From: a virus
DNA length: 23,607 nt
Reading direction: 5' to 3' (one strand)
Virus record (IMG/VR): IMGVR_UViG_3300047496_000434
Location: 1-23,607 of that record
Every line of letters begins with the position of its first letter. The stretch's first letter is position 1. The notes below the pieces were generated by a model. That model was not told the DNA's origin. It was given only the letters and a program-made list of their open reading frames with translations, and searched no databases. Of the stretch, positions 3,276 through 9,845 are shown piece after piece. The translations under genes were made by a program, and so were the position numbers.

Positions 3276-4604
3276 ATGGGAATTCAGAATTTTCCGCCGG
3301 CGCTACAACCAATCATTCAACAGGGGTTTCTTGAGCGCGAGTTTCAGGAAGCCCTGCGCTCGCGCCTGGGCTACCGCGCCGTCGCGGACCGCGAGGAGTT
3401 CGCGGTTGGAATTGGTGAGACCTTGACGAAGACAAGGGCTGGGTTGCGGCCAGCCGTCACGGTGCCGCTGGCACCAAATGCCAATACGAACCTCGACAAT
3501 GGCTTGACCCCGGGCAGCTGGGGCGTGGAGCAATATACCCTTACGCTGAACAATTATGCGTCGACCATGGATCTCAACATGGTGACGTCGCGTGTTGGTA
3601 TCGCGAGCCAGTTTCTACAGAATGCATACGTAAACGGCGAGCAGGCGGCGCGAAGCCTCGATGACCTGGCGCGCAACTCGCTGTTTGCCGCCTATTTCGC
3701 AGGAAATACGCGGGTACGGACGACACTCGGCGCAACGGGGCCGGCAATCACCGTTGACGATGTCCGCGGGTTCCAGACGGGGTTCGTGTACGGTGTGCAG
3801 CAGGCAGTTTCACCGACCAACGTGCTTGCCGTGACGGTGGGTGCAAATGTATATACGTTAATCGGCGCTACGATCGACACGGTCAATGTCTCGACGGCGC
3901 CTGGTGGCGTTTCTGGTGTGCTGACGTTCTCGGCTAATGTTACCGTCAGCGACGCAACCGCGGGGAATACCGTGGCGTCGTCCACATCGTCCCTGGTGCT
4001 GCGGCCAAATGGCCGCACCAATAGCCTGCAGCTTCAGGTAGGCGATACACTGGCAATGGCAAATGTCCTTGACGCTGTAGCGAACTTGCGACTGAACGCA
4101 GTGCCGGACATGGATGGCGCCTACAATTGCTATCTCGATCCCATTAGCGCCCGTCAATTGTTTGCCGACCAGGATTTTCAGCGGCTGTTCGTTGGCGCGT
4201 CATCGGCGAATGAGATCTTCCGGCCAGGCCAGGGCGTGGTAAATGAATTCTTGGGCTTGCGCTTTGTTTTGACAAACGAATCCTACGTCCAGGCCCATCC
4301 CACACTTCCTGCCACGGTAATCCGGCGACCAATTGTGGTTGGAAAGGGCGCCCTTATAGAGGGCGATTTCGCAGGAATGGCAGCTGACGAGGTGGCGCCG
4401 GCCAACTCTATCGTTTCACTCGTCGACGGTGTATGCATGGTTACGCGTGAGCCAATTGATCGGCTGCAGCAGATCATTGCTCAATCTTGGTATTGGATCG
4501 GCGGATTTTGCGCGCCGTCCGATACGACAACCAATAGCTCGACGGTTGCGACGGCTACCAATGCCAACTACAAACGCGCAGTAATGATCGAACACCTTGG
4601 CTAA
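3276..4604 (+). CDS. Major capsid protein (HK97-fold type, with beta-rich insertion)
   Basis: This 442-residue protein is the probable shell subunit. A good ribosome-binding site, GAGGTG at 3265-3270, lies five bases before the ATG. The N-terminal part (1-60) has an N-arm and E-loop-like region. Residues 80-150 resemble a spine-helix region (GEQAARSLDDLARNSLFAAY). Residues about 155-255 form a Thr/Val/Ser-rich, beta-strand-like block (NVYTLIGATIDTVNV, GVLTFSANVTVSDATAGNT), which looks like an extra insertion domain inserted in the coat core. Residues 280-410 return to an A-domain/P-domain-like pattern ending DGVCMVTREPIDRLQQII. It resembles the N4 gp56/P22-like coat group more than a plain HK97 gp5. 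No protease domain is fused. The coat call is strong from position and length; the fold class is inference. Confidence 0.85.
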   Translation: MGIQNFPPALQPIIQQGFLEREFQEALRSRLGYRAVADREEFAVGIGETLTKTRAGLRPAVTVPLAPNANTNLDNGLTPGSWGVEQYTLTLNNYASTMDLNMVTSRVGIASQFLQNAYVNGEQAARSLDDLARNSLFAAYFAGNTRVRTTLGATGPAITVDDVRGFQTGFVYGVQQAVSPTNVLAVTVGANVYTLIGATIDTVNVSTAPGGVSGVLTFSANVTVSDATAGNTVASSTSSLVLRPNGRTNSLQLQVGDTLAMANVLDAVANLRLNAVPDMDGAYNCYLDPISARQLFADQDFQRLFVGASSANEIFRPGQGVVNEFLGLRFVLTNESYVQAHPTLPATVIRRPIVVGKGALIEGDFAGMAADEVAPANSIVSLVDGVCMVTREPIDRLQQIIAQSWYWIGGFCAPSDTTTNSSTVATATNANYKRAVMIEHLG

Positions 4605-4635
4605 GGGCGCTCTTTCTGAGTGCTCCGCCATGACA

Positions 4636-4655
4636 AGCCAGGCGAAGTGCTGGCT
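4636..4655 (+). other. Small hairpin in the capsid-neck intergenic gap
   Basis: AGCCAG at 4636-4641 is the exact reverse complement of CTGGCT at 4650-4655, with an 8-nt loop. It is not followed by a T-run, so it is not a typical intrinsic terminator. It may tune mRNA stability or read-through between the highly expressed capsid gene and the neck genes. A 6-bp stem can arise by chance. Confidence 0.3.
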
Positions 4656-4688
4656 AGGCGTTCGAATGATTGCGTGAGTGCAGGTGAG

Positions 4689-5063
4689 ATGTTTACCGAT
4701 CAGCAAAAGACTGACATTAGGCGCTATTGCGGATACCCGGCTTATGGTGCCGACGCCGCCGGAAATCTCGGATGGAGATTTTTCACAGCGTACGGCACTT
4801 TGGAGTACCGCATGAATAATCTCAGCCCTGCTGAGGAAGCGGCCACGATGGGATACCTTACAACCCTAAACCTGCTTGAACAGGCGGTGCCATCTGCGGG
4901 GGCCAATCTTGACACCGAGAGCGCGGCGGAATGGCAGCGTAATCCAAACGAACTGACGGATCGGCTGCGGCTGTTCGATGGGTGGCGGCGGCGGCTCTGC
5001 GCATTTCTCGGTGTGCCGCCGGGGGATGGCCTGGGGTGCAGCGGCGTTTCCTGGGTGGTGTGA
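4689..5063 (+). CDS. Unrecognised neck-region protein, possible head-tail adaptor
   Basis: I do not recognise a named family. The product from the ATG at 4689 is 124 residues. Upstream in-frame GTG (4674) and ATG (4620) are possible but less natural, because the segment MFTDQQKTDIRRYCGYP looks like a genuine N-terminus and AGGTGAG precedes it, although very close. The protein is predicted mostly helical (NLSPAEEAATMGYLTTLNLLEQAV at mid-length; DRLRLFDGWRRRLCAFLGV near the C-terminus). A small helical protein directly after the coat gene fits the connector adaptor of the SPP1 gp15 / lambda gpW type, but that role is inferred from position only. Its stop TGA overlaps the ATG of the next gene by one base (TGATG), so the two are likely translated in a coupled way. 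Confidence 0.6.
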   Translation: MFTDQQKTDIRRYCGYPAYGADAAGNLGWRFFTAYGTLEYRMNNLSPAEEAATMGYLTTLNLLEQAVPSAGANLDTESAAEWQRNPNELTDRLRLFDGWRRRLCAFLGVPPGDGLGCSGVSWVV

Positions 5064-5686
5064 TGGACGGATCCACGATTCAGGATCGCCGAAGCAGGGC
5101 CTGGGGACTCGTTGCGCGCTATATCGGCCAGCAGTATATCGTATACAAACCAAACGGCAGCGCCAACCCGGTAGCAAGCCGCAATCGTGTTATTAAACTC
5201 ACAGCTCGGTTTACGCCTGGAAACGCCGGAGCACCGGGCGTTTTGGGGTACGGTGGCGTGCTATGGCGCGGCACATTCGATTCTCTTTATACGAAACCTG
5301 GCTACTATCTGGTGGATAACGATGCCACTTTCTTTGTTGCATCGCAATGGTCGCTGCAGCCGATACAGTGCATTCGAACGACTGACACGATTACAATTGC
5401 GCGCACACAAATGACACCGCCAGGGGCCTATAGTGGCTTCGTGTCCGAATTGGCACAGCAAATCATCGTATCGTGGCCCGCCTGCCTGATGGCCAACTCC
5501 ACGCATATTGGCGGCGGGCTGCCGGAGGCAAGTTTCGGTAACTGGACAGCGTATTTGCCGGTATTGCCCGCGCAACCTCAGGTCGCCGACGTGGTGACCG
5601 ACTTGCAGGGGCGCTTCTTTGTTGTGAGCTCGGCCCAACTCAGTTCATTAGGCTGGCGCCTGACAATGCGACAGATAGACGGCTAA
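5063..5686 (+). CDS. Unrecognised neck-region protein, possible head closure/stopper
   Basis: From the ATG at 5063 the product is 207 residues; a longer reading starting at 4982 would overlap the previous gene by 82 bases and is unlikely. The sequence is beta-rich, with no signal peptide or membrane segment. The C-terminal part (VADVVTDLQGRFFVVSSAQL and then SLGWRLTMRQ) has the small beta-barrel cadence seen in head-closure/stopper proteins such as SPP1 gp16-type. The middle part (residues about 60-120) is not familiar. Position between a probable helical adaptor and the tail genes supports a role in sealing the filled head or joining it to the tail. This is inference by order and secondary-structure feel; I could not match it to a family by eye. 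Confidence 0.6.
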   Translation: MDGSTIQDRRSRAWGLVARYIGQQYIVYKPNGSANPVASRNRVIKLTARFTPGNAGAPGVLGYGGVLWRGTFDSLYTKPGYYLVDNDATFFVASQWSLQPIQCIRTTDTITIARTQMTPPGAYSGFVSELAQQIIVSWPACLMANSTHIGGGLPEASFGNWTAYLPVLPAQPQVADVVTDLQGRFFVVSSAQLSSLGWRLTMRQIDG

Positions 5687-5752
5687 ACAATGTAACTCTG
5701 TTAATGGCTGCGGTTAGCGTAATCGGCTGCCATGGTCTTCATCGTGCGACAA

Positions 5753-5760
5753 GAGGAAGG
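5753..5760 (+). promoter_or_regulatory. Strong ribosome-binding site deciding a TTG start
   Basis: GAGGAAGG at 5753-5760 lies eight bases before the TTG at 5769. This supports initiation at TTG over the nearby GTG at 5775. Confidence 0.65.
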
Positions 5761-5768
5761 CCGGAAAG

Positions 5769-6704
5769 TTGTCAGTGGATCGCTTACATGTCATTACCGC
5801 GAGGTTCAATCCGCTAAGGTGGCAGGCACCTGATCGGAACTACCGTGACTGGGTAACACACATCCTCGATTCCGGTGCGCTCTTAACCGTCGTTGAAGTG
5901 CAGTATGGCGCCCGACCGTTCGCATGTGAACTACCGAACGTAAATCATGTCGGATTGCGGGCTAACAGCTGGGCCTGGAGCAAGGAATGCGCGATCAACG
6001 AGGGCATTAAACGCCTTCCATCCGCTGAATACATTGCCTGGGGTGATGCTGACATATGGCATCGGAAGTGCGGTTGGGCAAATGAGACTGTGGAATACTT
6101 GCAACATTACCGTGTAATTCAAACTTGGACCCGGGCGTTGGATCTTGGTCCACACGATGAGTTAATTGGTGTACATAGCTCATTCTGCTCGCAATACCAT
6201 TTGGGCGCACCTCTGGTCGCGGACGGTCCGCGGTTTTGGGTGTTCGATGGCGGCTACGCCACGTATCCCCATAGCGGCTATTTTTGGGCCTGCAGACGTG
6301 AATTCCTTGACTGGACCGGCGGCCTATTCGAACTTGCTGGCATGGGAAGTGCAGACCACCACATGGCCCTCGCGCTGGTGGGCAAGGTGGATCGGAGCTA
6401 TCCGGCGCAGACCAATTCAACCTATCGCGATCATCTGCGCCGGTGGCAAAACAGAGCGCAACGTTATGTCAACGGACGTTTGGCGGCGTTGCCGGGAACT
6501 ATTGAACACAGATTTCATGGCAGTAAGCAGAATCGGGGCTATCTCGCGCGCTGGGAGATGTTTGTCCGACACGGATTTGATCCTGATACCGACCTGAAGC
6601 GCAACAGCTGGGGCGTGATCGAGTGGGCCGGCAACAAGCCGGAGCTGGAGCGGGAATGGGATCTTTACTTACGCGCCAGACGCGAAGACGACAATTTTGT
6701 GTGA
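5769..6704 (+). CDS. GT-A fold glycosyltransferase (galactosyltransferase-like)
   Basis: This 311-residue protein looks like a sugar transferase rather than a virion part. The N-terminus begins with a Rossmann-like strand (LHVITARFNP). WGDADIW at residues 91-97 supplies a DxD metal/nucleotide-sugar motif (D93, D95). At about 168-198 there is a block typical of the C-terminal domain of GT7/galactosyltransferases: GYFWACRREFL, then a G-rich turn and GMGSADHH, where an acidic residue usually acts as base. EHRFHGS near 246-252 adds conserved-looking His residues. No signal peptide or membrane segment is seen, so it probably acts in the cytoplasm on a nucleotide-sugar donor. It sits between neck and tail-terminator genes, ending nine bases before the latter. 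The acceptor is unknown: a phage structural protein or the host surface glycan are both possible. Family is fairly sure, role is not. Confidence 0.8.
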   Translation: MSVDRLHVITARFNPLRWQAPDRNYRDWVTHILDSGALLTVVEVQYGARPFACELPNVNHVGLRANSWAWSKECAINEGIKRLPSAEYIAWGDADIWHRKCGWANETVEYLQHYRVIQTWTRALDLGPHDELIGVHSSFCSQYHLGAPLVADGPRFWVFDGGYATYPHSGYFWACRREFLDWTGGLFELAGMGSADHHMALALVGKVDRSYPAQTNSTYRDHLRRWQNRAQRYVNGRLAALPGTIEHRFHGSKQNRGYLARWEMFVRHGFDPDTDLKRNSWGVIEWAGNKPELEREWDLYLRARREDDNFV

Positions 6705-6713
6705 GCAATCGCC

Positions 6714-7523
6714 ATGGCCGACATCGCGCACGTTGAAGCGGCACTGGTCGCAGCACTGGTTTCGGCACTGTACCCCAATGGATTAGAAACAGTAGGCGTG
6801 TTGGGAACTCCATTGCGCATTCATCGAGGTACGCTGAATAATACCGACTTGAGGTACGATCGCGGCAACCACATCGTCGATATTGGCGTTCATTTGCTGC
6901 CGGGCGGGGGGCGAAACACCACACGGTGGGGGGTGCAGGTGACCGAAATGCTGGGCACGCCCAGTCTGACGGTCGGGACTAGTGCAAATTCAGCCACGTT
7001 CTTCGGGCCAGCCGCCATCGGTGACCTTGCCGGCGTATTGATCGGGCAAATTGCCTATATCTACCAGGCCAATGCTGGGGATTCGGCTGGGCTAGTGTGT
7101 GCCGCGCTGGCTGATAGTATTCGAAGCACCATGATATGCTGGCTGACCGGATCAACACTTACTGTCCCTGGGGTCTCCAGTATTGTCGCCCGCTGCGCCC
7201 ATCAGGTTGATGCGCTCCAGGAATGGGGGAGGCAGGAACATGGATTTTGCGTCAGCATTGCCGCACAGACTGCCGATTTACGTGATGCGGTGGGTGGCGC
7301 TATCGTATCGGCACTGGCCCAGATCGCGTTTCTTACGCTAGCCGATGGAACGGGCGGCAGGCTGCGATATCACGGATTGACCGACAGGGACCGCGAGCAG
7401 GGCGCTTCAATCTACCGGCGTGACATCAGTTATGAAGTTGAATTCGGCACGACAAGCGTATCAACCAATCCAACAATGCTGTTTGCCGATCTTGCCTGGA
7501 ATGGCACAATTATATTAAGTTAG
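6714..7523 (+). CDS. Tail terminator/completion-like protein
   Basis: This 269-residue product precedes the sheath gene, where contractile phages encode the tail terminator that caps the tube and joins it to the head. Residues 1-25 (helical, ALVAALVSALYPNG) resemble the start of terminator/completion proteins. The C-terminal part, YHGLTDRDREQGASIYRRDI followed by YEVEFGTT at about 222-252, resembles the closing beta strands seen in that group. In between lie an alanine/glycine-rich middle region (about 75-150) with no recognisable motif. It is longer than lambda gpU-type terminators. There is no membrane segment or signal peptide that I would trust. The call is by position and partial pattern; a baseplate or neck role cannot be excluded. 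Confidence 0.55.
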   Translation: MADIAHVEAALVAALVSALYPNGLETVGVLGTPLRIHRGTLNNTDLRYDRGNHIVDIGVHLLPGGGRNTTRWGVQVTEMLGTPSLTVGTSANSATFFGPAAIGDLAGVLIGQIAYIYQANAGDSAGLVCAALADSIRSTMICWLTGSTLTVPGVSSIVARCAHQVDALQEWGRQEHGFCVSIAAQTADLRDAVGGAIVSALAQIAFLTLADGTGGRLRYHGLTDRDREQGASIYRRDISYEVEFGTTSVSTNPTMLFADLAWNGTIILS

Positions 7524-7703: not shown

Positions 7704-9275
7704 ATGCCGGTATATTTGCAAGGCAACCTGAACACGACGGGGCTGGTTGTACCTGATCTGTACGTGCAAATCGTGGCGCCGCAGAATTTGCTGCTAAACG
7801 GCGTTCCTACCAACCTTATCGGTATCGTCGGCAGCGCTAGCTGGGGGCCTGTGAACCAGCCGGTGATCGTTGGGACAATGGCTGATTACGCCGCCAACTT
7901 TGGGCCCATTGTGGTCCGTAAGTTTGATATGGGCACAAATGCGGCTACGGCCATCCAACAGGGTGCGACAGGTTTTCGTTGCGTCCGCGTGGCAGATGGA
8001 TCGCAAACCGCGGCCAGCTTTGCAATCAACACCTTGAACGGAGCCTATTCGGCACTATTTACGGCGCAATACACCGGGGCTGTCGGCAACAGCATGACCC
8101 TGTCGATCTCGGCCGGATCGGCTCCCGGGACCTGGGCCTTTACGGTGATGTTACCAGGGCAGTTACCCGAGAAGTTCGACAACCTGGCAGCACCAACGCC
8201 GGCGCAGTTCTGGCAGAACCTGGTTAGCGCAGTAAATCTTGGTCAAGGTCCGTTTCGTGGCCCCTCGCAGCTTGTGGTCGCAACGATCGGGACATCGACT
8301 TCGGTGCCGCCAGCCCTGCTTGCGCCACAGCCGTTGATCGGCGGGACCGACGGTGCAGCGGCCTTGTCGGCTACTCTGCTCGTTGGTCAGGACACGGTGC
8401 CGCGCACTGGCATGTATGCGCTGCGTGCTCAGGGATGCAGTATTGGGTTGCTGTCTGATGCCGATGACCCCACGCAATGGGCTGCGCAGGCGACTTTCGG
8501 CAGCAGTGAGGGCCTGTACATGATCCTGACGGGGCCCGCGGGCGACAATATCGCCAATGCGGTGACGGTTATGCAGCAGGTGGGATTGAATTCATTCTCG
8601 GCCAAGCTGATGTTTGGCGACTGGATATTCTGGTCTGATCAAGTCAATGGCATGATCCGGCTCACCTCCCCGCAAGGGTTCGTAGCCGGCCGGCTGGCCA
8701 ATCTTTCGCCGCAGCAATCGAGCCTCAACAAGCCATTGAATAATGTTATTGGAACTCAACGATCAGGTACGCCCGGCAGCGGCCAATCCGCCACCTATAG
8801 CGAAGCTGAGCTGCAGGCACTTTTCAGTAACGGCATCGATGTCATTTCTAGTCCTCAACCTGGTGGCACCTATTGGGGTGTCCGGTGCGGGCACAACACC
8901 TCCTCGAATCCTGCGACGAATGGGGACAACTACACGCGGATGACCGACTTCATCGCCGCGACGCTGGCCGCCGGCATGGGCCAGTTTGTCGGCCAAGTCA
9001 TCAACGCCGGCTTGTTCAAGCGCATCCAGTCAACGCAGCTAAGTTTCTTAAACGCTCTGCTCCAACAGGGCATTTTGGGTAGTATTGACGGATCACTCCC
9101 GTTCGCCGTAATTTGCGATATTAGCAACAATCCCCCAAGCCGCACTGGCTTGGGGTATGTTCAAAGCGATGCACAAGTGCAATTTCAGGGTATTAACGAG
9201 AAGTTCATCGTGAACGTTGAGGGTGGGCAAACTGTCATCGTCCAGCGGCAAATTCTGCCTGGCGCAGGAAGTTGA
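7704..9275 (+). CDS. Contractile tail sheath protein
   Basis: The sheath subunit polymerises around the tail tube and contracts to drive the tube through the cell envelope. The 523-residue length is normal for sheath proteins. The N-terminus (PDLYVQIVAPQN, then LIGIVGSASWGPVNQPVIVG at about 37-56) matches the sheath opening, where a strand and loop lead into 'GIVG.A.WGP.n.p'. The C-terminal half has the conserved core domain: a loop region (TTYWGVRCGHNT-like, about 390-400), then TRMTDFIAATLAAGMGQFVG, and final strands that donate to the neighbouring subunit in the sheath mesh. The ATG at 7704 has GGAGG at 7692-7696. The tube gene follows after a 141-base gap, the usual sheath-tube order. High confidence. 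Confidence 0.95.
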   Translation: MPVYLQGNLNTTGLVVPDLYVQIVAPQNLLLNGVPTNLIGIVGSASWGPVNQPVIVGTMADYAANFGPIVVRKFDMGTNAATAIQQGATGFRCVRVADGSQTAASFAINTLNGAYSALFTAQYTGAVGNSMTLSISAGSAPGTWAFTVMLPGQLPEKFDNLAAPTPAQFWQNLVSAVNLGQGPFRGPSQLVVATIGTSTSVPPALLAPQPLIGGTDGAAALSATLLVGQDTVPRTGMYALRAQGCSIGLLSDADDPTQWAAQATFGSSEGLYMILTGPAGDNIANAVTVMQQVGLNSFSAKLMFGDWIFWSDQVNGMIRLTSPQGFVAGRLANLSPQQSSLNKPLNNVIGTQRSGTPGSGQSATYSEAELQALFSNGIDVISSPQPGGTYWGVRCGHNTSSNPATNGDNYTRMTDFIAATLAAGMGQFVGQVINAGLFKRIQSTQLSFLNALLQQGILGSIDGSLPFAVICDISNNPPSRTGLGYVQSDAQVQFQGINEKFIVNVEGGQTVIVQRQILPGAGS

Positions 9276-9416: not shown

Positions 9417-9845
9417 ATGCCACTTAACTCATTCTCGATCGGCCGGGATTGCCAGCTCGTTTTGATGGGTCCCTTTGGACGTGTCGATCTAACCTATGTG
9501 ACGGGCTTCGAGAGCCGCCAGATTACTCATTCGGTCCGGCTTGATAGATTGGATGGTGTACCCATGGGTGCCGAATTGCCTAAGGGATGGGAGGGCAGCT
9601 TTGAGGTCGAGCGTGGGACCAGCGCGGTAGATGATTTCTTTGCTACCACCGAAAATGCATTCTTCAACCAGGGCTCGCTGCCGGCGGGCGTCGTTTACCA
9701 ATACATCGCCGAAGTAGATGGTTCTGTATCGACATATCAATATGTCGGCGTTGTCTTCAAGCTGGCGAACTCCGGCACTTGGCGGGGCGATGCGAGCGTG
9801 CGCCAAAAACTTGAATTCTATGCAACACAGAGGCAACGGCTGTGA
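9417..9845 (+). CDS. Tail tube protein
   Basis: A 142-residue protein directly after the sheath gene, the normal place and size for the contractile tail tube subunit. Its rings stack to form the DNA conduit inside the sheath. The sequence is beta-rich, with a turn-rich central part (LPKGWEGSFEVERGTSAVDDFF, about 55-76) and alternating hydrophobic strands near the end (VGVVFKLANSGTWRG), as expected for the tube beta-sandwich that lines the lumen. It resembles Mu gpM-type tubes. CGGAGG at 9401-9406 lies ten bases before the ATG. Its stop overlaps the GTG of the next gene by four bases (GTGA), a sign of coupling with the tail chaperone. No oddities seen. Confidence 0.9.
   Translation: MPLNSFSIGRDCQLVLMGPFGRVDLTYVTGFESRQITHSVRLDRLDGVPMGAELPKGWEGSFEVERGTSAVDDFFATTENAFFNQGSLPAGVVYQYIAEVDGSVSTYQYVGVVFKLANSGTWRGDASVRQKLEFYATQRQRL

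Follow-up and report, generated by a model that had tools for sequence, protein, structure and literature searches.

The window, that is, the whole stretch of DNA analysed, is a 23,607-base IMG/VR virus record whose source is a phage of acid-soil Acetobacteraceae. Its late genes are arranged in the order TerL, portal, a small gene, the major capsid protein (MCP; 3276–4604), two neck-region genes (4620–5063 and 4982–5686), a glycosyltransferase gene (GT; 5769–6704), a gene for a 269-aa protein (6714–7523), the tail sheath (7704–9275) and a probable tail tube (9417–9845), all located features being on the plus strand; further tail, baseplate and fibre genes lie beyond the tube. Ten window proteins were scanned against PHROGs, and named families were hit by the portal, the MCP (phrog_1357) and the sheath (phrog_23) only; labels of genes lacking a PHROG name were assigned by position. 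The neck-region genes match unnamed PHROGs (phrog_14539 and phrog_14605, respectively), so the label ‘neck’ follows from gene order, and the probable tube (unnamed phrog_12993) was placed by its position after the sheath. The second neck-region gene, the left border of the GT slot, is listed from 4982; an ATG near 5063 that overlaps the preceding gene's stop is probably its real start, because the PHROG match begins at residue 28.

The right border of the slot was assigned by fold. A model of the 269-aa protein (pLDDT 89.9) matched T5 p142 (Z 14.5), lambda gpU (12.9), the Mu counterpart (12.2) and T4 gp15 (10.8). Since the protein folds as a tail terminator, the first-pass annotation was right to place the GT gene between neck and tail-terminator genes, with ‘neck’ read from gene order. 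Residues ∼80–165 of the terminator form an inserted beta domain like part of GbpA; it also resembles a domain in tail and baseplate chains of Agrobacterium phage Milano (Z 5.8–7.8 overall). Relatives have terminator genes of similar length whether or not they possess GT.

The open reading frame at 5769–6704 is a real gene. It encodes 311 aa from a TTG start, with the ribosome-binding site AGGAAGG (5754–5760, plus strand) 8 nt upstream, and the position of the start codon is common to the relatives, where it appears as ATG, GTG or TTG; both the TTG start and the strong ribosome-binding site had been read correctly from the sequence. An intergenic stretch of 82 bp (5687–5768, plus strand) separates the neck gene from GT, and a consensus scan detected nothing above chance there resembling a promoter, nor a promoter or terminator of GT's own. 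The GT stop lies 9 bp ahead of the tail-terminator start, the strand is that of the late genes and the GC content resembles the genome's. We infer that GT is translated together with the head and tail proteins. In some relatives, an inverted repeat of the AAAGTCTTTTGGTTCTTTTCTTCAGAAAAGAAC type, or a related sequence, terminator-like in appearance, was seen within the intergenic slot (L100, 4384–4701; 5′ of GT in L005, L010 and L050).

In an alignment of 40 rows, with relatives 47–82% identical to the window protein, the invariant columns include D93, D95, G170, W173, R177, G193, D196, H198, H250 and G251; besides these, some 45 further columns are invariant. The DxD motif is located where it had been reported (WGDADIW, residues 91–97, with DAD at 93–95), followed by GYFWACRREFL (170–180) and by GMGSADHH, which contains D196. 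D93, D95 and D196 had been proposed as active-site residues; all three are fully conserved, and catalytic roles, such as that of D196 as the candidate catalytic Asp, would follow from the alignment. In a profile match to ceramide glucosyltransferase, itself weak (E 0.01), D196 pairs with the ED-motif Asp.

An AlphaFold model built from 40 sequences (pLDDT 90.5, pTM 0.90) bears out the GT-A fold expected earlier: the top structural matches listed were GT-A enzymes with Z of 12.6–15.2. They include a Leptospira glycosyltransferase (15.2), WrtF (14.3), SpsA (14.1), TarP (13.9) and, at 13.4 each, GalNAc-T2 and B4GALT7. A membrane segment is unlikely, the maximum 19-residue hydropathy being 0.96. 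Judged by the model, the protein is a soluble GT-A glycosyltransferase with a putative metal/donor-binding DxD site.

The GT2-type enzymes SpsA, WrtF and TarP share the fold at Z 13.9–14.3, but at 10–16% identity, and the Pfam GT2 profile (PF00535) scored the window protein below threshold (12.1 bits versus a gathering score of 23.3, E 0.19); among 24 aligned members, 17 had GT2 matches at E ≤ 1, the best at 3.6e-4. The C-terminal part had been described in the first-pass annotation as GT7-like. Its G-x-G-x-x-D block does resemble the acceptor loop of GT7 (beta-1,4-galactosyltransferase) and GT27 (GalNAc-T) enzymes, a loose likeness of motifs; the window protein lacks a lectin domain, and the Pfam GT7 profiles (Glyco_transf_7C/7N) gave no match at E ≤ 1 with it or with 23 relatives. 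Membership in GT7 is rejected on sequence (0 of 24 members). The GT7 enzyme B4GALT7, at Z 13.4, stands near the GT2 and GT27 rows (Z 13.3–15.2); since structures of the three families score alike, the fold gives no particular support to GT7. PHROGs and NCBIfam had no match to the window protein, PHROGs had no convincing match to any of 40 family members, and a PDB sequence search with the single protein returned nothing meaningful. Thus, GT belongs to an unnamed phage-borne family absent from PHROGs and NCBIfam, and naming it would help to annotate at least 230 viral contigs.

This last number comes from a profile scan, which detected at least 230 relatives in viral contigs (80 were retained); a scan with the single sequence had yielded 47 viral loci. 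Among sampled genomes of the Acetobacteraceae group, 20 of 299 carry GT. Four cellular contexts were read in detail: in three, phage genes adjoin GT, and in the fourth (L311), where a simple gene caller missed GT itself, there are phage tail genes at a distance of a few kb. One Acetobacteraceae metagenome-assembled genome (G050, containing L051) has two GT copies on contigs C71 and C115, possibly two prophages. BFVD contains two full-length structural matches, both longer than the window protein and of unnamed function: A0A6G6XPM6 (398 aa, TM 0.89, 31% identity) and A0A5K0U7Q5 of Yasminevirus, a giant virus (530 aa, TM 0.87, 26% identity).

The genomic positions of the relatives vary. In Mu-like phages, GT is located between a TerL-like gene and a Mu-type portal (L035, portal E 1e-74), and L067 and L091 have the same gene clusters around it; in four records (L059, L075, L237 and L238), it stands beside tail-fibre and GH108 endolysin genes. 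In L044, GT sits at the edge of a block on the opposite strand, structural in appearance when inspected by eye; several large phages have it among small genes, and in L062 it adjoins an apparent NAMPT gene. The common theme of these positions, across different virion types, is late regions.

Six records with GT homologues (the nearly identical L043–L047, and L319) have a 303-residue intein inserted at YPH|S, in the conserved block ahead of GYFWA. In L044, the intein (5125–6033, plus strand) matches Pfam Intein_splicing with E 2e-6, below the cut-off; in L319, it occupies 929–1837 of the record, within the GT homologue. Inside the intein DNA of L044, on the opposite strand, lies an apparent homing endonuclease ORF (5131–5970, minus strand), which by eye reads as a helix-turn-helix followed by a PD-(D/E)XK/VSR-like nuclease; neither Pfam nor PDB gave a match to it. 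Similarity on one strand drags that of the other strand with it, and it is for this reason that codon positions, compared in one pair (L044 and L319), are real evidence of coding. In intein residues 1–90 and 271–300, the changes fall at sense codon position 3 (sense identity 0.83–0.90), while in residues 91–240 most are at sense position 1 (equivalent to antisense position 3), with identity of 0.23–0.67 in the sense and 0.67–0.83 in the antisense translation; the exteins show ordinary sense-coding behaviour. In the one pair tested, this pattern indicates that both ends of the intein code in sense and its middle in antisense. Profile scanning for the endonuclease detected 121 relatives, and an opposite-strand intein was present in all 76 endonuclease loci tested (same-strand, 0 of 76); many such inteins are apparently in minor head protein genes. 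The arrangement was noted also in L320, L321 and L322–L393. A keyword search of open-access literature found no earlier description of an intein with an opposite-strand endonuclease, and the arrangement is possibly undescribed. In L320 (minus strand, reverse-complement ∼3458–5460), a further group of glycan genes may accompany structural genes: look-alikes of a family 2 glycosyltransferase, an alpha-1,2-fucosyltransferase and a methyltransferase were seen together by eye close to the minor head gene that contains the intein.

To survey the slot itself, we anchored the search on MCP and sheath, not on GT. Among 111 loci with a visible slot (some sharing a contig), 32 have GT there, and in the other 79 the neck gene and terminator are 3–317 bp apart. 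The first-pass annotation had raised the question of whether syntenic phages hold the gene in the same slot; about half of the distinct relatives do (23 of 48), and in the rest (25 of 48) the slot is nearly empty. When mapped on a tree (48 rows) from a concatenation of nine structural proteins, presence of GT has to change seven times, six of these changes being forced by strong branches. Three of 34 empty-slot records have a GT homologue elsewhere, near the record end; in the two mapped, its neighbour is an endolysin-type gene. Fifteen gaps read by eye contained no recognizable GT remnants, and phages with and without GT have a common structural gene set. GT is therefore an optional cassette in the lineage of the window. 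One Acetobacteraceae-group genome (L312, 4302–6146) has an ORF of 614 aa with the MCP at its start and a tail sheath match further on, reflecting a deletion in a decaying prophage or misassembly.

Where present, GT is as constrained as the MCP and is under strong purifying selection. In close pairs, Ka/Ks was 0.013–0.057 for GT and 0.031–0.064 for MCP, with 0.09–0.27 for the flanking neck and terminator genes; mean protein distances were 0.21 for GT, 0.18 for MCP, 0.14 for the tube, 0.48 for the terminator and 0.51 for the neck protein. The gene is thus dispensable over evolution yet strictly kept where present. Its protein distances correlate with those of neighbouring virion genes up to gpJ (rho 0.40–0.77), but at only 0.10 with gpI. 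Recent horizontal gain was rejected, as the GC content is near that of the genome and the distances follow those of most neighbours. The best fit is a single old gain with repeated loss later; repeated gain at one site is a possible alternative.

As to what the enzyme modifies, we lean, with real reservations, towards a virion protein. The late position and the structural neighbourhood favour such an acceptor. The enzyme would be produced alongside the head and tail proteins, would bind a host nucleotide sugar via D93/D95 and a metal, with D196 serving as catalytic Asp, and would place the sugar on an exposed surface of a virion protein during assembly, most likely the capsid or the tail tube (the MCP and the probable tube being the candidates in the window). 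Since phages with and without GT share their structural genes, the decoration would not be needed for assembly; it may be useful in some conditions, e.g. in virion protection or adsorption tuning, and usefulness of this kind would explain both the repeated loss and the strict conservation where the gene is kept. Virion proteins, along with host glycan, had been the acceptors suggested earlier from the late timing: the GT-A fold with a DxD site and the late-operon position stand, but no acceptor signature was found in 18 structural proteins. In 25,380 Fisher tests over these proteins, no residue was convincingly associated with GT presence (best p 4.5e-5; none significant after correction), such tests having low power with about seven independent changes. 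Ser/Thr content of whole proteins and C-terminal tails revealed no convincing GT-linked difference or enrichment; the lowest p, 0.022, was for MCP, with less Ser/Thr in phages having GT. The C-terminal tail of MCP, SDTTTNSxTVPTATN, was considered as an acceptor and rejected, as it is equally present without GT.

The family's occurrence in phages whose virions are unrelated counts against a virion acceptor, being easier to explain by a shared host molecule. We regard as possible, though doubtful, that GT alters a host surface glycan, a lipid-linked sugar or a cytoplasmic precursor as a moron-like late gene, either blocking the binding of progeny or sibling phage to the dying cell or its debris, or converting the lysogen. 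An optional cassette at the head/tail junction, repeatedly lost, fits such a role, as do the constraint on GT while neighbouring virion genes diverge and the presence among the best structural matches of the glycan and wall-polymer enzymes WrtF and TarP. However, expression in a lysogen is unsupported with no own promoter above chance, late timing would limit the benefit, the window has no GtrABC-like partner gene of flippase type to accompany an enzyme lacking a membrane segment, and the genome-like GC content speaks against this role too.

A host target in the cytoplasm, protein or small molecule, is improbable; here GT might, for instance, inactivate a late defence or regulatory factor. The enzyme is soluble, optional and found in unrelated phages, sometimes in metabolic neighbourhoods of large phages such as that with the NAMPT-like gene, but most contexts examined place it among late structural genes.

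Glycosylation of phage DNA bases is very unlikely: DNA hypermodification by phage glycosyltransferases is known (Pyle et al. 2024, as cited in PMC12619734), but a thymidylate synthase-type gene occurred in 1 of 29 GT-family records and a TET/JBP dioxygenase in one other, both phages of >160 kb outside the lineage of the window, hydroxymethyl-base or TET/JBP pathway genes were absent from all (partial) records searched in that lineage, and a late structural position ill suits a replication enzyme. Equally hard to credit is a fold retained as a non-catalytic structural part of the neck, which the position between neck and terminator genes might suggest, as the donor and catalytic motifs are invariant in 40 aligned sequences and roughly half of the relatives build this neck in the absence of GT.

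Returning to the virion protein as acceptor, a wider proposal is that this family, which spans contractile-tailed, Mu-like, podovirus-like and jumbo phages and has a full-length structural match in a giant virus, adds sugar to virions as an on/off trait, repeatedly lost from a fixed slot or carried elsewhere. In this full form the proposal is rather unlikely to hold; if true, soil phages would have virion glycosylation as an ecological character that can be switched. To our knowledge, the acceptor is known for very few phage glycosyltransferases. Close relatives with and without GT, having otherwise the same structural gene set, make the role of virion or host glycosylation directly testable.

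Several known systems can be compared. Lambdoid morons are extra genes between head and tail genes that are absent from close relatives; GT is likewise missing from close relatives that retain intact flanking genes (79 of 111 slots; 25 of 48 distinct relatives). Unlike a moron, it has no promoter or terminator of its own above chance in a consensus scan, has genome-like GC content, and is apparently old and mostly vertically inherited. A tblastn search of 50,697 deposited phages detected a sole homologue, XaC1_205 of the Xanthomonas jumbo phage XaC1 (OR258281), which is full-length (32% identity, E 1e-42) but resides among small unannotated genes away from any head/tail junction. In the same search, the glycosyltransferases of Corndog-type phages were not detected as homologues. 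These phages nevertheless offer a parallel in gene position, and they give a precedent for a location that the earlier remark had called uncommon for such enzymes: Corndog and other cluster O mycobacteriophages are described as having three glycosyltransferase genes (gp36–gp38) in the structural operon (PMC4351075), and for Corndog-type enzymes the reported targets of modification are capsid and tail tube (PMC11600133); what Freeman et al. 2023 claim is given here as quoted in two citing papers. As described in these sources, the Corndog arrangement differs in having three tandem genes with an O-methyltransferase, between portal and protease, and in having a reported virion acceptor, whereas that of the window enzyme is a proposal. 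Phage glycosyltransferases encoded in late operons are of a known kind; this family, as yet without a name, stands out by its unusually clear pattern of presence and absence.
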